A stretch of 32,715 nucleotides of DNA from Pseudomonadota bacterium (lineage in GTDB: Bacteria > Myxococcota_A > UBA9042 > GCA-2863065): contig PKDL01000252.1 of NCBI GenBank assembly GCA_002863065.1, forward strand, positions 1 through 32,715. Reading direction: 5' to 3'. The position numbers and the translations under genes are program-made. Shown here piece after piece: positions 3,104 through 28,226 of this stretch (position 1 is its first letter; every line of letters begins with the position of its first letter). The notes beneath the pieces are model-generated. The model saw nothing but the letters and a program-made list of their open reading frames with translations, did not search any database and was not told where the DNA came from.

Positions 3104-4492
3104 TTACCGGCAGCACATGCGGCGAATCACATACTCGTAAAGGTCAGCAGCGCGCTCGATATGGTTTAGAGGGACATGCTCATTACCTCGCCCATGTAAT
3201 TCGGCTTGTCGCCCTGGCCCAAAGACGACCGTTTCTACCTGATACGCTGGTAGAAGCCAGGCCTCGGTCGCGAGAGGGAAATGACCGGTCACCGGTGGAA
3301 TACCGAGTCGATATAGACCTCTTCTGCATGTTTTGAGGAGTCGGCCTTTTCCGGCGGCATCGAATGGAAGTACGCTACGCGCGATATCGACTCGGCTTAC
3401 CAGGTGTTCGGGGAGCAACCGCTGTACTTCAGAACGAACGTCTTGGACCAGCACCTCGGTATTTTCTCCGGGTAAAGGCCAATGTTGGAGAGCGAACTCC
3501 AGCCCGTCCCGTACGGGACGGATCGCTGAGAATAGGCTCGGTGCCGAGTTCACGCGAGACCATAGTGGGCGGTGCCAACGGACTAGCTGCATCAATCGCG
3601 GAGATATCGCAGTGAATGCTGACAGGATCGTGTCTTCGGCTGACCCAGGAGTCGTTCTTGCCAAATGGAACTTCAAGTCTGGAGATCGCGGTGGAGTGGC
3701 CTCATTTGTGGCGATCGAGAACGTGGGTGGCTTGTCGTGAGCAGCGGAGAGTTGGTGAACGGAGAAAACACACTGCTGTCGAAGTGAGTGTATTGCCTTG
3801 AGGGTTCTTCCGACTCGATTTGCCCTCGAAATAGCATCTGTGTTCATCGGACCAGTGAGTTCTGCGTCGTACGTGTATTCTCCCGCAGGAGGGCTGGTCT
3901 TGGTTTGGCAAATTTCGATTCGGAGGTCGAGCTCCCCCGGATGAGTGTGCGCCAATTCTAAATTAGTCCCTGCTCCGACCAGTGCCATATCCGGGGCGCA
4001 TACTCCAGAGTCCATCAAGTGCATGATGCCGCTTACATGCGCGGCTGAACCAAATAGCCCAGCTAAAATTAGGGGCTGCTTATATTCGTTCCGGTCGATA
4101 CGGCTGGCCGCATGCGCTTTTATAAGGAGGTCTGGTAGTCCGGCAGTGGCGCCATGGGCGTACAGAGCGCCGTCTCTCCATGTGCTATTTCTCGGATTCT
4201 CTTCCGTAACAGTCCACTGTGTCGCGTCTGCGGTACCTTGTGGCCGAATGGCTGTGGAAAGCAGCAGTCCCCCGCGAGTGTAGGGCCCTCTCAAGCCGAT
4301 CAAGTTCGTTGACTCCGTATCTGAGAATGAGGCTGCTTGTTCGATGATTTGAAAGTCTGCCCAGTCGAGCAGATCCATAAGATACACCAGTAATGCGCGG
4401 TATCCCGTAGGGGTTGCTAAGTCGTACGTGAGCGTCTGTTGTATGGCTCGCGGTAAGTCGAAGGCAGCTGTCATCGTGTTGAAGTGTTGCAT
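3104..4492 (-). CDS. M20-family (ArgE/DapE-like) protein lacking the metal site
   Basis: The fold is recognisable along its length: GGLLLS near residue 74, WTVTEENP then RDGALYAHG at 93-114, LVGAGTNLEL near 171, and C-terminal TEAWLL plus TVVFGPG near 409-427. These align with ArgE segments for acetylornithine deacetylase. The residues that bind the two metals or act as general base are replaced: GHTD becomes TAIR (A81, R83), TADMKG becomes TAGLPD (A117), DEE becomes GSA (S149, A150) and GEPT becomes GAGT (A174). Only the last histidine (H433) remains. It is therefore probably a binding or scaffold protein, not a hydrolase; this is inferred from hand alignment to remembered family motifs. No signal peptide is evident. 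AGGA lies 7 nt before the ATG. It is divergent from dtd, with 30 nt between start codons. Confidence 0.75.
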   Translation of the reverse strand: MQHFNTMTAAFDLPRAIQQTLTYDLATPTGYRALLVYLMDLLDWADFQIIEQAASFSDTESTNLIGLRGPYTRGGLLLSTAIRPQGTADATQWTVTEENPRNSTWRDGALYAHGATAGLPDLLIKAHAASRIDRNEYKQPLILAGLFGSAAHVSGIMHLMDSGVCAPDMALVGAGTNLELAHTHPGELDLRIEICQTKTSPPAGEYTYDAELTGPMNTDAISRANRVGRTLKAIHSLRQQCVFSVHQLSAAHDKPPTFSIATNEATPPRSPDLKFHLARTTPGSAEDTILSAFTAISPRLMQLVRWHRPLWSRVNSAPSLFSAIRPVRDGLEFALQHWPLPGENTEVLVQDVRSEVQRLLPEHLVSRVDIARSVLPFDAAGKGRLLKTCRRGLYRLGIPPVTGHFPLATEAWLLPAYQVETVVFGPGRQAELHGRGNEHVPLNHIERAADLYEYVIRRMCCR

Positions 4493-4522
4493 GCGGTCAT
4501 CCTGTCGGGCAACGTCCCCATT

Positions 4523-4972
4523 ATGCGTATTGTTTTACAGCGAGTTAGTCGTGCATCTGTCACCGTCGATAAGACGGTTACCGGTGCTATCGAGCAGGGA
4601 TTCCTTGCATTGGTCGGGGTAGGACAGGAAGACGATGAGCGAGATGTGGATTACCTCGTCGAAAAGACCGCGGGTCTTCGAGTCTTTGTGGACGATGCAG
4701 GGAAAATGAATCGTTCGGTAGTGGATGTAGAAGGTGATGTGTTGGCTGTAAGTCAATTCACGTTGTACGGGGACTGTCGGAAAGGTCGTCGTCCAAGCTT
4801 TGTTGCCGCGATGGCTCCTGAGCGGGCAAACCAGTTGTTTGAAAGATACGTTGCAGGATTGCGAGCGAAGGGTCTGAGTACTCCTACCGGGGTCTTTGGC
4901 GCTCATATGGATGTTGATTTATTGAATGATGGGCCAGTTACGCTTCTTCTGTGCTCAAAGAAATCGTTCTAG
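4523..4972 (+). CDS. dtd: D-aminoacyl-tRNA deacylase
   Basis: Cytoplasmic proofreading enzyme that hydrolyses D-amino acids (and glycine from mischarged tRNA-Ala) off tRNA. The N-terminus MRIVLQRVSRASVTV, the active-site strand AVSQFTLYGD near residue 76 and the C-terminal NDGPVTLLL with its Gly-cisPro element are all diagnostic of DTD1. The reading frame is open 13 codons upstream, to 4484, but family proteins begin at MRIV, so the ATG at 4523 is chosen; this gives 149 residues, the usual length. The Shine-Dalgarno is weak. The gene ends 3 nt before the tolB stop codon on the other strand, so the two genes converge with no room for a conventional terminator between them. Confidence 0.96.
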   Translation: MRIVLQRVSRASVTVDKTVTGAIEQGFLALVGVGQEDDERDVDYLVEKTAGLRVFVDDAGKMNRSVVDVEGDVLAVSQFTLYGDCRKGRRPSFVAAMAPERANQLFERYVAGLRAKGLSTPTGVFGAHMDVDLLNDGPVTLLLCSKKSF

Positions 4973-4975
4973 TGA

Positions 4976-6340
4976 TCAACGTACGGGCGGCCGTTCCCAT
5001 GCGGGAGTAAAGTATTCACCCGGTCCGCGTGATACTTGTCGGGCCTCGCGGCCGTCCGATGTCATAATCCAAATGGCTCGACTACCAGAACGGTCACTAG
5101 AAAATGCAATGTACCGGCCGTCGGCAGAGAAGCAGGGCTCTTCATTACTTCCTGTTTCTGTGAGTCGACGAACGACATTAGTGTCTAGTTGAATTTCGAA
5201 AATTTGATATCGCTCGCCACCGGTCATCGCGCTGTAGACAATGCGTGGTCCGATAGGAGACCAATCCGGACCCGTGTTGTATCCGCCGACTTGTGGTAGC
5301 CGGTCGACTTGGGCGCTTTTTAGGTTGAATCTCGCTATCTGAGGCCGCCCAGTATACCGGTCAGTGACGAAAGCAAGTTCATTTCCTTCGGGCGACCAAG
5401 TCGGTGACGTATCAATTGCTGGGTGATGAGTGACTCTTAGACGCTCTTTTCCCGATACAGAATCCAAAACATAAATCTCTGGGTTCCCGTCGCGACTGAG
5501 AGTGAGTGCTACTTTCTTTCCGTCGCGGTAAAAAGCAGCCCCCGTGTTCATGCGTGGTCTAGTGGAGAAGGGGCGGTTACCGATATAGAGGTCGGGATTA
5601 TTCTTTTTGAATGATGTGTAGGCAACGACTCCTCGGGAAGTCCAAGCTGGGAGAACGTTAATTGAGCCGTTTTGGGTGACATGTCTTTCGAATTCGCCGT
5701 CGATGTCCATGACCCTGATTTCTTTAGAACCTCCGCGCTTAAGTCGGTGTGCAAAGGCGAGCTGCATGCTGAGAACACCTGCTTTACCGGTAAAATGTCG
5801 AATCACCCCATCTACCCAACGCGATGCTGCCCGCTTTACAGTAAGCGGATCTGCGCTCGGAAGGCGCTGTTCTTCGAATGGTAATTCAACCCACCGACCC
5901 GCTTCCGTTAGGTACAGACGTAGGGTGATCCGGAGTTCTCCGTTTTGGCGACGCAGGGCTCCCTTTACGACGGCATAGGCTCCGATGTCGTGCCATGCTT
6001 GATAGTCGACGGTAGTTTTTCCCAGATGTTCCAATGTTCGCTGCGGCGGGTACGTCGATTCGTTCAGCACTGTGAAGAAGCCGGACCAGCTCAGTTGTTG
6101 ATGAAGATGGGTGAATAGCCGGTTTGATACTTGGCTTGAGCGGCTTTGTTTATCGACATCGAAGATACGATCGACGGCCATTGGAAATAATCGGAAGACG
6201 GTAGGGTCTGACAGCGATTCGCATGCTCCACCGATACATGCTTCTCCCACGGTACACTCTTCAGTACTTGCGCAAAATGTGAAGTCAGCGGGAGGCTGAA
6301 TAAGCAGTAGTGCGGTAATTGCGATACCAATACTGCTCAC
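4976..6340 (-). CDS. tolB: Tol-Pal system periplasmic protein TolB
   Basis: Periplasmic beta-propeller of the Tol system, which links TolA to Pal and outer-membrane constriction. A signal-peptide-like start (residues 1-17) leads to an N-terminal TolB domain (about 45-185) and then about six propeller blades with repeats such as DTSPTWSPEGNELAFVTDR, GPDWSPIGPRIVYSA and EEPCFSADGRYIAFSSDR. The total of 454 residues is close to E. coli TolB at 430. An oddity is a small cysteine cluster at the mature N-terminus (C23, C29, C35, C40, spacing CX5CX5CX4C), where E. coli TolB carries its TolA-binding tail. The start ATG overlaps the tolA stop as ATGA, indicating translational coupling. No pal gene follows; dtd converges from the other side. 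Confidence 0.93.
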   Translation of the reverse strand: MSSIGIAITALLLIQPPADFTFCASTEECTVGEACIGGACESLSDPTVFRLFPMAVDRIFDVDKQSRSSQVSNRLFTHLHQQLSWSGFFTVLNESTYPPQRTLEHLGKTTVDYQAWHDIGAYAVVKGALRRQNGELRITLRLYLTEAGRWVELPFEEQRLPSADPLTVKRAASRWVDGVIRHFTGKAGVLSMQLAFAHRLKRGGSKEIRVMDIDGEFERHVTQNGSINVLPAWTSRGVVAYTSFKKNNPDLYIGNRPFSTRPRMNTGAAFYRDGKKVALTLSRDGNPEIYVLDSVSGKERLRVTHHPAIDTSPTWSPEGNELAFVTDRYTGRPQIARFNLKSAQVDRLPQVGGYNTGPDWSPIGPRIVYSAMTGGERYQIFEIQLDTNVVRRLTETGSNEEPCFSADGRYIAFSSDRSGSRAIWIMTSDGREARQVSRGPGEYFTPAWERPPVR

Positions 6341-7245
6341 TGGAATAGTCTCCCATCCAAGTCCACCAGAATGCCTTTGTCATTCACAAACGCCAGTATA
6401 TCCGCGTCTGGTCGCGGCAGGCGGCGAGTCCCCCCTTCACGTGGCATAAATTGCCGTATTGCGGCTTCGGCAGCGGATGTGAATGCCTTCGAACGAGCTT
6501 TCCGTTTGAGTCGATAGGACTCTATCGAACCATCGGCCGTCATCTTCGTGATGATTAGTCGTACGATTTGCCGTTTTATCTGTTTTTTCGAAAGCGAGTT
6601 GGGTACCAGAAAAACTCGGTGCATCTCCAACGCCATTTTGCCGAAATACGTATCGAATTTTTCTTGGTCTGCGCCTTTTCCGTACATCTCGCCGTCTAGT
6701 CGGCCAGTAATCTCTTCAAACGCCGTTGGCCGGGCGCGCGGGTCATCATCGAGGTTGAAGAGGTCCCGGCGTGGGCGTTTGCGTTTGTTTCTTCGCTTGT
6801 CCAGTTGGGCTTTGCGCTTGAGGAAGTCCTTTATGGGTAGTGGCTGGAGCTTTTTAGGCTCCTCAGCCACATTGATGGACTCTTCGATTGTCTCCGGTTC
6901 TTCATACTTCTGGATTACGGGCAGCTTCGTTTTATCGGGCTCCTTACCGCCAAGCTTTGCCACCTTGAGTTCTATTTCCACGGGTTCGATACGAGGCTGA
7001 CACTCTTCTATTGAGCGACAATCTCGTTCTATCCGCCGCCTCTCGAATGCAACCTCAAGGTGTTGTGCGCGCGCTCGCAACCGTCTTGAACGCTCCCATT
7101 GAAAGGGCTCAGGCACGCGTAAGCGTACGTAGTTACTCTCCACAGTCATCAAGGTGTAGCCCAGCCCGGCATGGACTAGTATTGTTCCGGCTAATCCAAC
7201 CAAAAGCGCAGGGAAAACCGCCGCATCGTTGGATTGTCGATTCAC
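6337..7245 (-). CDS. tolA: TolA/TonB-like energy transducer
   Basis: Inner-membrane-anchored, periplasm-spanning protein that transmits the force of the TolQR motor to TolB and the outer membrane. There is one transmembrane segment (about residues 10-30), then a long charged linker rich in Glu, Lys, Arg and Pro (35-180). A compact C-terminal domain (about 195-302) follows, with VRLIITKMTADGSIESYRLK and AFTSAAEAAIRQF, typical of TonB_C/TolA_C. The linker is much shorter and less helical than E. coli TolA's, and it carries Cys at about 76 and 82. Its start overlaps the tolR stop and its stop overlaps the tolB start, both as ATGA, so it is translated as part of the tol operon. TolA is preferred over TonB because of tolQ, tolR and tolB beside it; sequence alone would not settle this. 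Confidence 0.82.
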   Translation of the reverse strand: MNRQSNDAAVFPALLVGLAGTILVHAGLGYTLMTVESNYVRLRVPEPFQWERSRRLRARAQHLEVAFERRRIERDCRSIEECQPRIEPVEIELKVAKLGGKEPDKTKLPVIQKYEEPETIEESINVAEEPKKLQPLPIKDFLKRKAQLDKRRNKRKRPRRDLFNLDDDPRARPTAFEEITGRLDGEMYGKGADQEKFDTYFGKMALEMHRVFLVPNSLSKKQIKRQIVRLIITKMTADGSIESYRLKRKARSKAFTSAAEAAIRQFMPREGGTRRLPRPDADILAFVNDKGILVDLDGRLFQ

Positions 7246-7859
7246 TTGGACTCTTTATCCTCAGCCTGTGGTCCGGTGGCGATGATATTCACCTGCTTTA
7301 TGCCATGCTCCGATCCCATAATGGCCATAAATTTCGTCGCCCATCCCCACGGAATAGATTCATCTGCTGCAAAATTGACCCGCTGTTTTTCTTGGATACG
7401 GACGTTGGGCCCAAGTACGGCTGCCGCGCGTTTAGCGCAGCGTTCGAAAGCTTGGTCAGAACGTTCGGATCCTACTTTTGAGCTGGTCTCTGCCAAGAGA
7501 GGTTCGACGCTTTTACAGTCTACGATAGCGGTGGCGTCCAGCCGAAATACCAGGTTTCGATCGAGTACCACCTTGGGCTCTCGCTGCTCACTCTCTTTCA
7601 CCTGCTTCACATTGGTATTTGGCACCGTTACCGGAACATCTTTGAGTGGGTTTTTGGGTGGCTCGGGCTTTCGGGGAACGAGATCCCGTTCAATACGTTG
7701 TGTTTCGCGTAGCTCACGTTCGGCTCGCACTGTTTCGACACTGGCAGTAATCATGAAGATAATGAGCAACACGAGCATCACGTCCACGAGTGGTGTGACA
7801 TTAATTTCGGCCAGGGTAGACGGTCCACCACCATTGCTGTTGGGGTGATTCATGCCCAT
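7242..7859 (-). CDS. tolR: TolR/ExbD-family stator protein
   Basis: Partner of TolQ in the proton-driven motor. The N-terminal segment INVTPLVDVMLVLLIIFMI (about residues 19-37) is the ExbD/TolR transmembrane helix and contains the conserved channel aspartate of the VTPLVDV motif. The periplasmic part is about 165 residues, making the whole protein 205, longer than the usual 140-150. The extra length is a basic and proline-rich stretch followed by two lone cysteines (DCKS and ERCAK). The start ATG at 7859 has GGGAGG 8 nt upstream. It lies 56 nt after tolQ and overlaps tolA by 4 nt. Confidence 0.9.
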   Translation of the reverse strand: MGMNHPNSNGGGPSTLAEINVTPLVDVMLVLLIIFMITASVETVRAERELRETQRIERDLVPRKPEPPKNPLKDVPVTVPNTNVKQVKESEQREPKVVLDRNLVFRLDATAIVDCKSVEPLLAETSSKVGSERSDQAFERCAKRAAAVLGPNVRIQEKQRVNFAADESIPWGWATKFMAIMGSEHGIKQVNIIATGPQAEDKESK

Positions 7860-7915
7860 GTCAAGGCCCTCCCGTGCGCTTTTTGGACGGTATATATTGG
7901 CGTATTAGCACGTCT

Positions 7916-8626
7916 CTACTCCGCAAAGTAGAGACGTCGGATGGTGTTGAGGCAGTCGGAACCAAAGCCGTCTATGTCGGTCGCCGTGCGTCGTACTTTC
8001 TGTACGAAAAGATTGTACGCCATAACGGCTGGTATTGCGGCAAGCAATCCAATAGCGGTCGCTACGAGTGCCTCAGCGATGTGTGGCGTCACCGTGGTGA
8101 GTAGGTTGGCTTCGTCTCCCATTTCCGCAAGGCCACCGAAGGCACGCATGATCCCCCAGACGGTGCCAAATAGGCCGATGAATGGCGCGGCTGAACCGGT
8201 GGTGGCAAGGATGGGGAGAAGCCGCTCGAGTCGCATGACTTCCGCGTTGACTTGGCGTCCGACCGCACGTTCAATATTCTCAAAGCCCGTTCGTACCACC
8301 CCATCTTGTCGGGCCGAGATACGTCCCAGTTCTTTGATGGCACCGACGAAGATACGCGCTTCCGCAGACATAGGATTCGCACGAGTGTCCTCATAGAGAT
8401 GGTTTGGATTTTCCATATTCCAGTAACTCGCTAGAAATTTTTCTGACGCGCTACGGTTGGTACGAAACCAGACGCTTTTGTAGAAAATGACCAGCCAGCA
8501 CACCACGCTCATGAGTATAAGTGTGATGAGTACTGCCAGTACGACGCCCTGCGAATCAAATATATTAGAGAAGATGTCGAACTCTCCACCGCCGCCATGC
8601 GTTGCAGAGAGGAATATTACTGTCAT
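7916..8626 (-). CDS. tolQ: TolQ/ExbB-family proton channel
   Basis: Inner-membrane proton channel subunit that powers TolA. It has three hydrophobic segments (about residues 27-50, 135-160 and 175-200). The MotA/TolQ/ExbB core includes ILATTGSAAPFIGLFGTVWG and the downstream IAEALVATAIGLLAAIPAV, with the conserved small residues and threonines of TolQ. The length of 236 residues is normal. GGGGG lies about 8 nt before the ATG. It is the first gene of the tolQRAB operon and is divergent from the FHA gene. Confidence 0.93.
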   Translation of the reverse strand: MTVIFLSATHGGGGEFDIFSNIFDSQGVVLAVLITLILMSVVCWLVIFYKSVWFRTNRSASEKFLASYWNMENPNHLYEDTRANPMSAEARIFVGAIKELGRISARQDGVVRTGFENIERAVGRQVNAEVMRLERLLPILATTGSAAPFIGLFGTVWGIMRAFGGLAEMGDEANLLTTVTPHIAEALVATAIGLLAAIPAVMAYNLFVQKVRRTATDIDGFGSDCLNTIRRLYFAE

Positions 8627-8725: not shown

Positions 8726-8776
8726 TTTCACGAGCTTGAATCGAGATGCCTTTACATTGCTGATTTTATTGTGCTT

Positions 8777-8804
8777 TTGACAATCCTGCCCTCAGGGATA
8801 CAAT
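8777..8804 (+). promoter_or_regulatory. Sigma70-like promoter of the FHA gene
   Basis: TTGACA (8777-8782), 16 nt, then TACAAT (8799-8804): five of six -10 bases and all six -35 bases match consensus. Transcription would begin near 8811, 32 nt before the ATG at 8843. Because the promoter lies inside the in-frame upstream extension that begins at GTG 8771, it argues that the extension is not translated. Confidence 0.75.
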
Positions 8805-8842
8805 CGGGATACGAACGCGCATGCGCTGGGAGCTACACCGCG

Positions 8843-11479
8843 ATGAGCAATGACGAAGATGAGTTTGAGTTCTCTGATAGTACGGCTGTTGACCTCGGTG
8901 CCGCCGACTATCTCCAGAGCGAGAGTTCGGCGAGAATTCGTACTCTTCTCGGCCACTCTAGTCCTCCCCCAATACCGCCAAGCGACTTAGAGGGCGACAC
9001 GGGGGGTACTGAGCGTCAAGAACCGCCCGCAGATTGGGATGATGATGGCGGTCATACGGCGGCTTTGGATGTATCTTCCGTTAACTCTGGTGAAGACATT
9101 GCTAGTTCTGGTGAAGACATTGCCGGACTAGTGCTTGAGGGACCGTTTGCTGGAGTGGAGTCAGCTCCGGTCGTCGATCCGCATCGTACGATGGCATTAG
9201 ATGTGGGTCGTGAGCAGGAGGCCGTTGGTACTCCTGAGTTGGCTGACGCCGTCTTTGGGGTTGATCCTCAGTCCCTCCCTTTTTCGTTGGATAATGAAAT
9301 TGAAGAGCGGACTCAGCTATCCACCCCGGCATATGTCTTCGACACCGACGATAAATTGGTCCGTCCGCCACCGATAGAGCCACCTGAAGACCTGTCTTTG
9401 GTTTCGGTGACTGATGAAAAGACGACGGCAGTCAACACACCGGAATTCGATATTTTACCGGATGATAGCAGCAGTCAGGCGAGTGAAGAGGTCACATCCG
9501 TTGGCCAGCAAGAACCGACATTTTCACCGTACGGCCCCGCGGGTGATGGAGCTGCAAGCATACAGTTGCCGGAGGAATCGAAGGACGTAGATTCGACCAT
9601 GATGTTTGACGCATCGGAGCTGCTCAAACCTCGATTGGAAGGTCCGCAGGGGGTGATCACTGTCCTTGAGGGAAATGACGCGGGCAAAGAGTACTTTTTG
9701 CGGGGGGAAGCGACGGTGGTTGGTCGTGGCTTAGATTGTGATCTGGTGCTCAACGATGCCTCCGTGAGTCGTCGGCATTTTCGTCTCGATCGACACGGTG
9801 ATACCTACACGATGATCGACTTGGGTAGTGGGAATGGGACAAAAGTCAACGGGACGAAAGTGTCAGAGATTGTTCTCAAGCGTGGGGCTGATATCTCGAT
9901 TGGTACCACTCGACTGCAGTTCGGGTTTGTGGGTAGCGAAGAGCGCGCTCCAGTAGAGAAAGTGGTGGATTTGAAGACTGCAGGAACCGGCTTGAAAGTC
10001 GGTTTTGTGGTGCTTCTATGCTTGGTAGTAGTGGGTGGCGTATGGCTCATTGGGAAATCTCAGGCCTGGTGGTCCGCTACGGAGCCATCTTCGCGTCCCG
10101 TGGTCAAGACTCCGGTAGATACAACGAAGCCGAAGTCTGAGGCAGAAGAACTGGCGGAAAAGTCACGCGAGTATCTCGCGAAAAAAGATCTCATGGAGGC
10201 GGCTGGTACGATTGATGCTTTGGAAAGTCAGGGCGGAGATCCGGACTTGGTGTCTAACCTCCGTCTTCGGTTATCTGCTGCCCAAACTCACCGGAAAGTA
10301 CTTGAGGCTGAGAAAACACGTTTGATGCGCGGTGATCCGCAAGAGGTCATCACCAGTCTGGAGGTTATTCCCTCGACTAGCCCATACTACACCGCGGCCG
10401 ATGAGCTTCGCGACCAAGCACAACAGATGCTACTGGAGCGGCTGAAGGAATCAGCGTACGACTTGAGGGATAGCGGTAAGAGAGACCAGGCTCGAGTCGT
10501 ACTAAACAGAGTACTTTCTATGAATCCTGATGATGGAGAAGCTAAAGCGCTCATGGCGACTTTGGATAAGCCTTCACCATTGGTAGGAATGCAGGGCAGT
10601 ACTATTATTCCTGAGTTACCAAAGGTAGCCGGAAAGGGTGCAGTGCCGGTCAAGCCAACCGTTACCGCAACACCCGCCGGATTAGCTTCCGCCCAAGGTC
10701 ATCTCAAGGGTGCTATCGCGTCGGGCACAACCGATGCCAAGCCAGCCACAAGAGCAGCGTCTGCGAATGCTACCCAAAAGGGTAGGTCGACGCAGAAATT
10801 CAAGAGCATGCATCGGAAAAATTCTCCTAAACGGAAGGGTTCCTCTGTTGGGAAAAAGTCAAAGAAGTCTCCGAAGGCACGCGGCCTACGCAAGGGGTAT
10901 AGCTTGTACTCTAGTCGGAAGTTCAGCGCGGCTGCCGCAGCATTCCAGCGGGCTAGTGAGGATGCATCTCTAAGCAACCAAGAACGGGCAAAAGCCGCAG
11001 TGCTAGCGCCAAAGGTTCGTCAGTTCGCGACATTATTCAGCGAAGGGAGATCAGCAGCTGATGCATTCCAACCTTCAATTGCCATACCCAAGTTGAAAAA
11101 GGCCGCCACTATCGACAAGGCGGTCAGTGGCACATTTGCGGGGGATATCCGGCGCAAGTTAGCGAAGATGTATGCTTTCAAGGCTGCTGGTGCCTATTCG
11201 AGCAGCCAATACCGGCAGGCTGCGCAGTTTGCGAAGAAGGCATTGGGCTACAACAAAGGGGAAGCATCAGCACGACTTATTCGGGAGAAGGTGGAAGGGA
11301 AAGTAGGGGCTATGATGTCGAGCGCTCGGCGCGCTAAGTCAAACGGTAATCTCAGATTGGCCGAACGGCAGCTTACCACCATTCTTGGCATTCTTTCCGA
11401 ATCGGATGCTCGCGCAAAACAAGCGCGCAGGATGCTGAACGAAATCCTCGCGAGTCGAGTGGATGATGACGATGATTAG
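8843..11479 (+). CDS. FHA-transmembrane-TPR protein
   Basis: Probable inner-membrane adaptor whose cytoplasmic FHA domain reads phosphothreonine marks. An acidic, low-complexity N-terminus (about 1-260) is followed by the FHA domain (about 265-363) with ATVVGRGLDCDLVLND, SVSRRHF and GSGNGTKVNG, so the phosphothreonine-binding residues appear intact. One transmembrane segment comes next (about 383-403, VGFVVLLCLVVVGGVWL). After it are TPR-like helices, a Lys/Ser-rich basic linker near 660-700 and more TPR-like repeats to the C-terminus, presumably periplasmic. An imperfect tandem repeat encodes SGEDIA twice at about 9085-9124. The ATG at 8843 is preferred over the GTG at 8771 because of the promoter and because GGGAG lies 10 nt upstream. 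Function is unknown; its kinase partner could be the one encoded at 24765-26789. Confidence 0.8.
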   Translation: MSNDEDEFEFSDSTAVDLGAADYLQSESSARIRTLLGHSSPPPIPPSDLEGDTGGTERQEPPADWDDDGGHTAALDVSSVNSGEDIASSGEDIAGLVLEGPFAGVESAPVVDPHRTMALDVGREQEAVGTPELADAVFGVDPQSLPFSLDNEIEERTQLSTPAYVFDTDDKLVRPPPIEPPEDLSLVSVTDEKTTAVNTPEFDILPDDSSSQASEEVTSVGQQEPTFSPYGPAGDGAASIQLPEESKDVDSTMMFDASELLKPRLEGPQGVITVLEGNDAGKEYFLRGEATVVGRGLDCDLVLNDASVSRRHFRLDRHGDTYTMIDLGSGNGTKVNGTKVSEIVLKRGADISIGTTRLQFGFVGSEERAPVEKVVDLKTAGTGLKVGFVVLLCLVVVGGVWLIGKSQAWWSATEPSSRPVVKTPVDTTKPKSEAEELAEKSREYLAKKDLMEAAGTIDALESQGGDPDLVSNLRLRLSAAQTHRKVLEAEKTRLMRGDPQEVITSLEVIPSTSPYYTAADELRDQAQQMLLERLKESAYDLRDSGKRDQARVVLNRVLSMNPDDGEAKALMATLDKPSPLVGMQGSTIIPELPKVAGKGAVPVKPTVTATPAGLASAQGHLKGAIASGTTDAKPATRAASANATQKGRSTQKFKSMHRKNSPKRKGSSVGKKSKKSPKARGLRKGYSLYSSRKFSAAAAAFQRASEDASLSNQERAKAAVLAPKVRQFATLFSEGRSAADAFQPSIAIPKLKKAATIDKAVSGTFAGDIRRKLAKMYAFKAAGAYSSSQYRQAAQFAKKALGYNKGEASARLIREKVEGKVGAMMSSARRAKSNGNLRLAERQLTTILGILSESDARAKQARRMLNEILASRVDDDDD

Positions 11480-24764: not shown

Positions 24765-26789
24765 TCAGCCAATACGTATATGTTCGGTTTGATGCAATAG
24801 GAAGAGCACAAAGTACACATGGTGTTTGCTTTCATCGTTTCTTCCGAAAGACTTTAGCAACGCCGGCACGGTAGTCGGTCGGGTGAGTAAGCCCATGTGA
24901 ATCCTATGTTCCCGTGGAGATAGCTTTAGTCGTGCTGCGTCAAACGGAGGGGTTCCCGTAAGCCGGACACTGGTTCCGCGTTGTTCCTCAATGTAGTCGC
25001 GGAGCACATCTGTGCTGACGTACCGTCGGACACCCTCAGTAATTGCAGGCAAGGGGTCGAGCGCAAAGGGCGCTATCTTCACGTGTGGAACCGTGTCTTG
25101 ATATACCTCGTAGCGAGCGTCCTCCCAGGCGAAGAGTGACACAAATTTTTCTCTGAACTGGATATCTAAAATCTTAAATAGGTCGGTCTGAGCCAAGAAA
25201 CCCAGTTGAACAAGGACTGTACCCAAGGGTCCTCCATGGACCTTGATTTCGGATACTGCACGATCAAGCTGCTCTTGGGTGATAAGTCCTTTTTGTACTA
25301 AGACAGACCCGAAAAGTTCGCGCTTGCTATTCGATGTAATTCGAATGACTTTGCCTCGCCTGAAATAGACCTCTTTTCGGTACATATCCCGAATAAGGAC
25401 TAAGCGGCGTTCTTTCGGGCTTCGGCTCAGCCGGGAAATAATGTCGACTGCATTACGTGGACCGAAGTCTCCGGACAGAGTGGGCGGGTCATAATCTACG
25501 ATGAACGGTGTTTCGGTGAATTCCGTGAGTTGAGTGACTTCTCTGATGGGCCGCCAGTTTTCGCCGTTGACGCTCACCAACTCATCCGGCCCCACCGAAT
25601 GAGTCTCCATTAGTTGCTGTAAGTTCGTAAAAGTGATGGGTCCGAAGATACCGCTCTCAGGGGACTTGAACCTGAATAGACTAGTCTGCAGGCGAGATGG
25701 CTCTGACCGATTGTGAACGGCCACTGTGACCTCGCTAGTCATCGGTGGCGGGTCAGACTCATCCGCATCTTCAGGGTTAGGAACATCGTCCGCTGCATCT
25801 ACATCCGGTGAATGCATAGCATCAGCCACGCCATCGGCGCTCCATGAGATATGCTTAGCATCTTTGGGTACCTCTTCGAAGAGTTGGCGTAAATACTTTC
25901 CAAGCGCCTGGGGGGTAACACGTAGCCGCTGTTCGAATAGGTATTGACTCAGTGACTCTTCGAACTCATAGGCACTCTGAAAGCGTGTATCTACATTACG
26001 AGTCAACGCGCGTCGGATGATGTTCTTCACTTCGTCAGGAATGTGTGAGTGCTTTGCCAGCCGCGACTCGATATTGGCGTCTCGAATATTCTTAAGCGTC
26101 TGCATATCGGTCCTACCGAGAAACAATCGCTTAAGTGTGAATAGTTCGTAGAGGATAATTCCTAAGGAGAACAAGTCAGATCGTCGATCGATTGGTTTAC
26201 CGGTCACTTGTTCCGGACTCATGTACCCAAGCTTGCCTTTGAGGCGGTCGTCACGAGTTGAATCCCCCGCTACTGTGGCTCGGGCGACACCGAAGTCGGT
26301 AAGCTTCACCTCGCCGTCCCAGCTCAGCAGGATATTGGATGGTGATACATCCAAATGGACCATACTCAGGGGCTTTCCTGTCATGTCCGTGGCTGAATGA
26401 GCGTAGCCAAGTCCTTTACACACCTCGACTACGATGAAGAGGCACAGCTCCGGAGGAAGCAGCTGCTTTTCGCGTGCCGCACAGGTAAGGGTTTTGAGAA
26501 GGTCAGGGCCCTGAACGTACTCCATGGCAATGAAGTACTCGCCGTTTTCCTCTCCCAATTCATAAATTTGGACCACGTTCGCGTGGTGCAGGCCCGACGT
26601 TACTTTGGCCTCTTGGATGAACATGGTGATGAACTGCCGACTACGAGCAAATTCCGGTAGAATCTTTTTCACCACCAGTATTTTTTCGAAGCCGTCGACC
26701 CCTCGAAGGCTGGCTTTCCATATCTCGGCCATTCCGCCCTCGCCGATTTTTTCGAGGAGGGTATATTTTCCAAAGGGACGTCCGCTCAT
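24765..26789 (-). CDS. Ser/Thr protein kinase with GYF_2 and DUF4388 domains
   Basis: Kinase domain about 6-290: glycine loop GEGGMAEIW, lysine in LVVKKIL, catalytic HLDVSPSNIL (about 142-151), DFG in KLTDFGVA and the APE-equivalent MSPEQ. The Arg of HRD is Leu, so it is a non-RD kinase; the catalytic Asp, Asn and DFG Asp are present. Next come an acidic linker, a GYF_2-like domain (about 368-412, GIFGPITFTNLQQL and VNGENWRPI) and a DUF4388/PatA-like region (about 430-600, KEVYFRRGKVIRITSN, GSVLVQKGLITQEQLDRA). There is no transmembrane segment, so it is cytoplasmic. The ATG at 26789 overlaps the upstream stop as ATGA; the GTG one codon before is less likely. PP2C and FHA genes in the window suggest counterparts. 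Confidence 0.92.
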   Translation of the reverse strand: MSGRPFGKYTLLEKIGEGGMAEIWKASLRGVDGFEKILVVKKILPEFARSRQFITMFIQEAKVTSGLHHANVVQIYELGEENGEYFIAMEYVQGPDLLKTLTCAAREKQLLPPELCLFIVVEVCKGLGYAHSATDMTGKPLSMVHLDVSPSNILLSWDGEVKLTDFGVARATVAGDSTRDDRLKGKLGYMSPEQVTGKPIDRRSDLFSLGIILYELFTLKRLFLGRTDMQTLKNIRDANIESRLAKHSHIPDEVKNIIRRALTRNVDTRFQSAYEFEESLSQYLFEQRLRVTPQALGKYLRQLFEEVPKDAKHISWSADGVADAMHSPDVDAADDVPNPEDADESDPPPMTSEVTVAVHNRSEPSRLQTSLFRFKSPESGIFGPITFTNLQQLMETHSVGPDELVSVNGENWRPIREVTQLTEFTETPFIVDYDPPTLSGDFGPRNAVDIISRLSRSPKERRLVLIRDMYRKEVYFRRGKVIRITSNSKRELFGSVLVQKGLITQEQLDRAVSEIKVHGGPLGTVLVQLGFLAQTDLFKILDIQFREKFVSLFAWEDARYEVYQDTVPHVKIAPFALDPLPAITEGVRRYVSTDVLRDYIEEQRGTSVRLTGTPPFDAARLKLSPREHRIHMGLLTRPTTVPALLKSFGRNDESKHHVYFVLFLLHQTEHIRIG

Positions 26790-27088
26790 CACCGCTGCTG
26801 CTGCTGTCGTTCAAGCGCGGACAGTAGCTCCAAGTTCGCTTCACACTGCGCGTTATCTGCATCAGACGCCGTCGCAGCTTGTTTTTTTAGTTCCCTACAG
26901 GAAGCCACGATTGCCCGGATTTTTTTGCACTTGTCGGTCAATTCGCCCGATCCATTAGGCTCACACTCGGTCAAGTCTTTCTGGGTCCGGTCGCATACAC
27001 GGCCCGCGAACTCTTCGCAGGGCTTGCTGCACCCCATGCTCAAGGCATGAATGAGGAACACTGCTATAAGCGCCTTTTGCTTGGCCAT
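26789..27088 (-). CDS. Small cysteine-rich lipoprotein
   Basis: A 99-residue product with lysines, a hydrophobic stretch and a lipobox LSMGC (Cys20). The mature part has six more cysteines (C24, C32, C42, C54, C64, C82) in a helical, charged sequence, enough for three disulfides. It ends in a glutamine run. It overlaps the kinase start by 4 nt and follows the PP2C gene by 18 nt, so kinase and lipoprotein are translationally coupled. A lipid-anchored periplasmic sensor or partner for the kinase pathway is a reasonable guess, but a cytoplasmic kinase without a transmembrane segment could not contact it directly. No family is recognised. Confidence 0.75.
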   Translation of the reverse strand: MAKQKALIAVFLIHALSMGCSKPCEEFAGRVCDRTQKDLTECEPNGSGELTDKCKKIRAIVASCRELKKQAATASDADNAQCEANLELLSALERQQQQR

Positions 27089-27106
27089 ACTAGGTACCTT
27101 GCTCGT

Positions 27107-28117
27107 TTACTTTTTCCGGCGGTCAGATTTTAGGACAATCTGGCCAACCTCAACAACGAGTGCTGTGATGTTATCTACTCCGCCTCTATCGTTTGCCTCC
27201 GCTACGAGCTGTTCGCACGCAGTCGTTGGCGAGTCGGCAGCCAGAACGATTTTCAAGATATCTTCATCCTCTACGAGATCGGTCAGTCCGTCAGAGCATA
27301 GTAGAAATTGATCTCCTGACTTTGCCTCTCGGTAGAAGGTGTCGATCTGGACGCTCTCTTGTAATCCGAGCGCTCGCACGATGACGTTCTTATACGGGAA
27401 CCGGGGTAAGTCCTCCTTACGTAAAATCTTCATCTTTACGTATTCGTTTGCCAATGAGTGATCATCGGTAAGTTGTTTCAACTGGCCGTTTCGTATTCGG
27501 TATACGCGACTGTCCCCGACGTGGCCGATGTAGACTCTAGCTCCGACAAAGTGCACAGCGACTATTGTCGTGCCCATATCTCGAAACTGCTCATGCTGCC
27601 TGGCGGTGTTGAATATATGGAGGTTCGCCGCTTCTAGTGCTTTCCATAATCGGAATTCATCAAATGCTCGATGATTGTGCCCCTTCCCAGAACGCTCTCG
27701 ATAGGCACGGAAAGCTCCTCGCAGCATGGAATCGGTAGCATCATGTTCGTAAAACGCTCGTACCGAGTCTACCGCAAGCTTGGAGGCAACTTCGCCGCTG
27801 TTGTGCCCCCCCATTCCATCGGCGACCACAAATAGCCCGTTGGCGCGCATTGTGAGCGCGTTATCCTCGTTTTTTTCACGAACCCGCCCCACGTCCGTCA
27901 GGACCCCGACCCGCATACGCGTTGCTGGACCGAATTTAGCCAAGTCTGAAATGAGTATTGGCTGGGTATCATCATCGCAACCGACTCTCTCTGACGGGTT
28001 CACAGGTGCATTCGTCTGTTTAATACCAAGAGTGGTGGATAAGCCTGTACCCTCTCCGTCGGTGGATGCTTTCGTTCGCTGCTTTCCAGACTTATGGCGG
28101 ACATCTGACCCAGGCAC
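27107..28117 (-). CDS. PP2C-type Ser/Thr protein phosphatase
   Basis: Metal-dependent phosphatase of the Stp1/PrpC type that would reverse the neighbouring kinase. Motifs in order, with numbering from the GTG start: VREKNEDN (about 80), VADGMGGHNSGEVAS (about 99), FRDMGTTIVAV (about 176), YIGHVGDSRVYRI (about 193), LLCSDGLTDLV (about 268) and GGVDNITALVVEV (about 312). The metal-binding aspartates appear intact. A polar leader of about 65 residues precedes the domain. The longest frame begins at TTG 28147, but AAAGGAG lies 7 nt before GTG 28117, so I take the GTG (336 residues). It sits between the zinc-ribbon gene (109 nt upstream) and the Cys-rich lipoprotein. Confidence 0.95.
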   Translation of the reverse strand: MPGSDVRHKSGKQRTKASTDGEGTGLSTTLGIKQTNAPVNPSERVGCDDDTQPILISDLAKFGPATRMRVGVLTDVGRVREKNEDNALTMRANGLFVVADGMGGHNSGEVASKLAVDSVRAFYEHDATDSMLRGAFRAYRERSGKGHNHRAFDEFRLWKALEAANLHIFNTARQHEQFRDMGTTIVAVHFVGARVYIGHVGDSRVYRIRNGQLKQLTDDHSLANEYVKMKILRKEDLPRFPYKNVIVRALGLQESVQIDTFYREAKSGDQFLLCSDGLTDLVEDEDILKIVLAADSPTTACEQLVAEANDRGGVDNITALVVEVGQIVLKSDRRKK

Positions 28118-28226
28118 GCCGCGTCTCCTTTCAGATTCGAAGGTCAATCGGCTGACACCTCGTGACGTGAAGGTACTGCTGGGTCAACACGTACGTCAAC
28201 CAAAGCGCGCACCGAGAATAGTTGAA

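Follow-up and report, generated by a model that had tools for sequence, protein, structure and literature searches.

A probable M20-family pseudoenzyme encoded head-to-head with the D-aminoacyl-tRNA deacylase gene dtd

Nicastrin is a protein of peptidase clan MH that no longer acts as a peptidase. Metal-site pseudoenzymes are already known in the M28 family, which is related to M20. Transferrin receptors 1 and 2 are also clan members that are no longer peptidases (PMC4000134). In the bacterial CA_C2195 (DUF4910), an M28-like protein of the same clan, neither invariant catalytic residue has been kept, but the metal site still has three ligands and one Zn (PMC4000134). Among the papers that we searched, none described a pseudoenzyme of the M20 family itself.

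The window, that is, the whole stretch of 32,715 nucleotides analysed here, is contig 8 within a fragmented 5.4-Mb assembly. A preliminary description of this DNA had read the open reading frame at positions 3104–4492 of the minus strand as an ArgE/DapE-like M20 protein, and the matches of its 462-residue translation to Pfam, NCBIfam and PDB confirmed this assignment. The Pfam Peptidase_M20 model (PF01546) matched with 28.5 bits (E 1.7e-6), above its cut-off of 24.6. The best NCBIfam model was acetylornithine deacetylase TIGR01892, with 56.9 bits against a trusted cut-off of 297.7, which places the protein outside that equivalog, and E. coli ArgE was its sole sequence relative in the PDB (E 1.6e-4). 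The true start is likely M7, at position 4474, because the homologues begin at the matching residue (MALAFD.., MSLPPD..). We refer to this M20-fold protein without metal ligands as M20-psi.

To compare the active site residue by residue, we used an alignment of 22 proteins, 14 of which are intact M20 rows from the same phylum. The catalytic and ligand columns read H, D, D, E, E, E, H in all 14 intact rows. In the window protein, encoded on the minus strand, the metal-ligand His of GH(T/L)D is Ala at codon 81 (4250..4252), the catalytic Asp of HxD is Arg at codon 83 (4244..4246), and the bridging Asp of (A)D(M/A)K is Ala at codon 117 (4142..4144). The general-base Glu and the ligand Glu of the EE pair are Ser-Ala at codons 149–150 (4043..4048), and the ligand Glu of GEP(T/S) is Ala at codon 174 (3971..3973). 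All of these replacements had been listed in the preliminary description, whose numbering proved exact; its list was incomplete, as the lid-domain His is also replaced (T218), and so is the Arg of D(L/V)RP (W338). Less secure was its statement that H433 alone is left. The C-terminal ligand His region corresponds to codons 433–434 (His-Gly, 3191..3196), with a register that is ambiguous by one residue: the ligand column holds G434 in two MAFFT alignments and H433 in a third, owing to a one-residue indel before NE438. A co-catalytic M20 site cannot be built from a single His, whichever register is right. The set of five metal ligands of an active ArgE/DapE-type M20 enzyme is therefore not present (A81, A117, A150 and A174, with H433 ambiguous), nor are its catalytic Asp and general-base Glu (R83 and S149). 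We rejected a misalignment that masks the ligands, since H433 was the only one to shift register in several alignments that included both clade members and intact relatives.

AlphaFold2 models, built from four-row alignments, had a pLDDT of 61 for the window protein, which is low confidence, and of 71.5 for a homologue from family f9. When these models were compared with the PDB using Foldseek, DapE and ArgE ranked first for the window model (E 2.4e-12) and ArgE ranked first for the f9 model (E 8.4e-19). The structure prediction suggested in the preliminary description thus recovered the ArgE/DapE fold, from a window model of moderate quality. The assignment to the M20 two-domain fold, as predicted by these models, is secure; the low-confidence stretches include the former active-site loops, and details of the pocket are insecure.

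We then examined how widely this form of the protein occurs. At the protein level, a search through 90 related genomes returned full-length relatives in both other genomes of the same family, at 36–37% identity, and weaker relatives in other families. When all 52 genomes of the class were searched with a profile, eight clade members were identified in four families, with three in f1, three in f9, one in f4 and one in f10; the sample of this ligand-poor clade is thus only eight genomes, all of them draft and fragmented, and the f4 and f10 copies are split by contig ends. Members of f1 share 24–40% identity with one another and with those of f9. No intact orthologue was found among the 52 genomes of the class, where the next profile matches fell below 90 bits. 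The contigs of GTDB r220 gave no match to the window protein, and a search of them with the f9 alignment returned only the three f9 genomes.

The ligand-poor M20 gene has one constant companion. The product of dtd, D-aminoacyl-tRNA deacylase (DTD), corrects mischarged tRNAs. In the window, dtd lies at 4523..4972 on the plus strand (PF02580, E 1.2e-56), and a 48-bp gap (4475..4522), presumed to be a shared promoter region, separates the divergent start codons. The M20 gene is head-to-head with dtd in 8/8 genomes, at a start-to-start distance of 46–345 bp (345 bp at one locus and 46–190 bp at the other seven), and this arrangement was seen at none of the 20 dtd loci from class genomes without a clade member. 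The preliminary description had named comEC and a MotA-like gene as neighbours that give no reason for a peptidase; it had overlooked dtd, the immediate divergent neighbour and the only conserved one. The other flanking genes are not common to the homologous loci and have been exchanged even between members of one family. Only in the window is the pair flanked by comEC and tolB, and a conserved link to comEC or the tol genes was rejected because the homologous loci share neither. DTD itself looks normal, with its motifs SQFTL and N(D/E)GPVT intact wherever the sequence is complete. The DTD tree is too weak to resolve vertical from horizontal inheritance.

Elsewhere in the window, a cluster of TolB, TolA-like, TolR and TolQ genes follows dtd (4979–8626), and a second MotA/TolQ/ExbB-type protein is encoded at 8–454. 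A large FHA-domain protein is found at 8771–11476, and at 24768–28147 a Ser/Thr protein kinase that carries DUF4388 and GYF_2 domains adjoins a PP2C-type phosphatase. In G008, a genome without a clade member, a weak M20 Pfam match is located about 0.9 kb downstream of dtd (locus L095, about 5581–6081; G008:C119:7580–8080). The profile of the clade does not recognise this match, which may reflect cross-matching of a protein from some other family of peptidases.

The constancy of the pairing led us to consider a functional link between M20-psi and DTD, for which we judge the chances to be about even from the gene arrangement. A direct physical partnership of the two proteins is doubtful. It is also possible, although somewhat unlikely, that the pseudoenzyme is maintained but unrelated to DTD, and that the pair is held together only by overlapping promoters in the very short divergent intergenic region. 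This explanation, the strongest of the three that compete with ours, ahead of residual unorthodox chemistry and then slow decay, draws on the short spacing, 46–190 bp at all loci but one and 345 bp at that one, since splitting a pair so closely set would damage the promoter of a housekeeping gene. It also draws on the net charge of M20-psi, which ranges from acidic to near neutral and is not obviously suited to binding RNA; RNA binding by charge was rejected on this ground. Over such divergence, however, insertion or loss would break most head-to-head pairs, every other flanking gene has been replaced even within one family, and dtd does well with other neighbours in class genomes that lack M20-psi. 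As a separate observation, the basic loop RHRRMPP in the lid domain (loci L006, L008, L009 and L010) is common to the f9 and f10 homologues despite their low identity, and is absent from f1 and from the window protein. This loop is a possible nucleic-acid or partner contact.

To trace the origin of the clade, we extended the sample to 379 genomes of the phylum. Ten genomes of one further family, f39, which belongs to another class, carry homologues that score 173–233 bits against the clade profile. Their metal sites proved intact when seven f39 rows and L123 were read column by column. In a maximum-likelihood tree of 41 M20 proteins, the ligand-poor proteins form one clade (ultrafast bootstrap 100, SH-aLRT 97) that is sister to the f39 clade (97/94), and the group was still recovered when the ligand columns were removed (99). 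As reconstructed from this tree, the ligand-poor clade is lineage-restricted and has a single origin from an intact ancestor of the ArgE/DapE deacylase type. In f39, the M20 gene is not near dtd. It belongs to a conserved operon with the gene for arginine N-succinyltransferase, AstA (PF04958), a succinylglutamate-semialdehyde-dehydrogenase (AstD)-like gene and a GBBH-like_N gene (loci L114–L123 and L156–L162). We infer that the f39 enzyme desuccinylates an N-succinyl amino acid in an arginine succinyltransferase (AST) pathway, where it probably replaces AstE as the desuccinylase. AstA is present in 10/10 f39 genomes, 0/8 genomes of the ligand-poor clade and 0/9 other genomes of the class, and accordingly none of the eight ligand-poor M20 genes stands beside it. 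We rejected the idea that an old ArgE duty was made redundant by ArgJ, because ArgJ does not discriminate between the two groups: it occurs in 6/8 dtd-linked genomes and in 5/5 of the f39 genomes tested.

Against this intact sister clade, simulation along the tree showed that f39-invariant residues have been lost throughout the ligand-poor clade more often than expected (20 observed, 10.4 expected; P 0.01). New invariant polar or charged residues numbered four (1.5 expected; P 0.05), a borderline excess that is only suggestive; in the window protein these are D24, D40, E51 and R390. Asp at codon 24 (4421..4423, minus strand) is invariant in 8/8 ligand-poor homologues and is Pro or Ser in the intact sister clade, and Glu of EQ at codon 51 (4340..4342, minus strand) is likewise invariant in 8/8 and absent from the sister clade. 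D24, D40 and E51 all lie within the N-terminal segment.

The preliminary description had proposed that the ligands were lost simultaneously and that conservation of the substitutions among homologues should be checked. His81 and Asp117 are indeed replaced in all ligand-poor members, the bridging Asp by Ala, Ser or Gly, and the other ligands vary by branch. The EE pair is EE in the three f9 members, which also retain the lid His alongside their GEE pair, and is DD in G001 and G002. At the Glu position of GEPT, G001 keeps Glu, G002 has Asp, and every other member has either Ala or Trp; among full-length members, only G001 has a C-terminal His in register. Because the surviving ligands differ among branches, only His81 and Asp117 were lost clade-wide and the others stepwise; the f9 GEE pair, together with the GE(P/G)T Glu and C-terminal His of G001, does not support a simultaneous loss. 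The same survivors are what favours a second alternative, namely that M20-psi is still catalytic, either by chemistry that needs no metal in the old pocket or by metal chemistry that relies on an incomplete or relocated set of ligands. H433, H152 and E179 of the window protein are near the old ligand positions, and reviews of pseudoenzymes report alternative chemistry in folds that were thought dead (PMC10211241). Nevertheless, we consider this alternative quite improbable. The alignment contains no His, Asp, Glu or Cys that is conserved across the clade as a replacement, so that relocation of the ligands within the same pocket, which would have spoken against the preliminary description, was not seen. 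Moreover, no member keeps the bridging Asp, the ligands that survive are not the same from branch to branch, and the new conserved charged residues D24, D40 and E51 are N-terminal.

Because protein identities of 24–40% leave pairwise dS saturated, we compared differences at codon positions in place of the classical dN/dS that had been recommended. Third positions change more than second positions in 15/15 pairs within the ligand-poor clade, by a margin of 0.035 to 0.27 per codon; for example, second and third position differences are 0.45 and 0.70 for G000–G001, and 0.27 and 0.40 for G010–G013. All eight copies, in four families, are open and without internal stops, two being merely cut at contig ends, and the structural glycines and the TEA, GPG and PG motifs are conserved in the clade. 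The rate of change is nevertheless high. Within f1, M20-psi identity is 35–40% where DTD identity is 64–68%, and at a DTD identity of about 0.65, the M20 identity is about 0.52–0.61 for intact proteins, about 0.5 for f9 and only 0.35–0.40 for f1. These comparisons point to a constraint on M20-psi that is real but weaker than, or different from, that on intact M20 proteins; the fast evolution fits weak constraint and counts against our best explanation. That M20-psi is a relic in slow decay, open in eight genomes by chance, is very improbable, since a neutral 1.4-kb frame would close over such divergence, all copies are open with conserved motifs, and third positions change most, even though it evolves faster than intact M20 proteins whose DTD has diverged to a similar extent, the window's own branch above all, and its ligands went stepwise. 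Recent decay was rejected, as no intact orthologue was found among the 52 class genomes and intact relatives are confined to another class; the intact site in sister species that the preliminary description had named as a refutation was not encountered. Its suggestion of selection for a non-catalytic role, as opposed to recent decay, is supported by open frames in four families, by their membership in one clade, by the excess of third-position change and by the lack of an intact orthologue in the class genomes.

Catalytic residues are lost clade-wide in eight genomes of one clade, with fold and reading frame kept, and M20-psi is very probably a maintained metal-free pseudoenzyme. Our overall reading, to which we assign a probability of roughly 0.6 on the comparative sequence evidence, is that metal chemistry was lost anciently from a desuccinylase-like enzyme, which became a maintained non-catalytic M20 protein that is probably expressed and acts with DTD. 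The absence of AstA from the dtd-linked lineages would leave a desuccinylase without its substrate and free the fold for re-use. The first His and the bridging Asp were lost clade-wide and the remaining ligands piecemeal, and the freed fold would have been placed beside dtd and kept for a non-hydrolytic job. The head-to-head arrangement suggests that M20-psi and DTD are co-expressed from the short shared intergenic region. M20-psi would then most likely serve the process in which DTD acts, the clearance of D-amino acids or of mischarged tRNAs, and would do so by binding, either of a ligand that resembles an amino acid or of a partner protein, in place of hydrolysis. Candidates for what it may bind are a D-amino acid, an acyl-amino acid, tRNA and DTD itself. 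A narrower version, in which it is a dedicated DTD partner that, for example, senses or holds the released D-amino acid or modulates DTD activity, is unlikely; such a partner would be, to our knowledge, the first accessory protein known for a bacterial DTD.

If that narrower version is correct, an amino-acid-deacylase fold has been re-used in translation proofreading. The strict pairing with dtd offers a testable lead on D-aminoacyl-tRNA quality control in uncultured deltaproteobacterial lineages. In addition, a clade with an intact sister, a single origin and graded ligand loss could serve the study of how a binuclear metallohydrolase becomes a non-enzyme.

Comparison with known systems places M20-psi close to active enzymes in fold and apart from them in its metal site. 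With the ArgE/DapE-type M20 deacylases (PF01546; E. coli ArgE, 7rsf, and DapE, 7uoi) it shares the fold, the domain order with an inserted lid domain, the TEA, (F/L)GPG and PNE motifs and a conserved C-terminal Cys. It differs from them in having no secure metal ligand out of five and no catalytic Asp or Glu, and in an additional segment that precedes the second catalytic half. The f39 M20 proteins have this same segment, form the sister clade and reach 233 bits against the clade profile; however, all of their ligands are intact, and their genes lie in the AstA/AstD-like operon with the GBBH-like_N gene, away from dtd. Transferrin receptors 1 and 2 and nicastrin resemble M20-psi in that a metallopeptidase fold was kept for binding after catalysis was lost, but they are eukaryotic M28-type membrane ectodomains with no close relation to it in sequence or context. 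The closest published bacterial case that we found is CA_C2195, which belongs to the same peptidase clan and also has its catalytic residues replaced, with a metal site that is partly kept; it is an M28 rather than an M20 protein in which three ligands and one Zn are left, it has DUF2172 and winged-helix domains, and it shows no link to dtd (PMC4000134).
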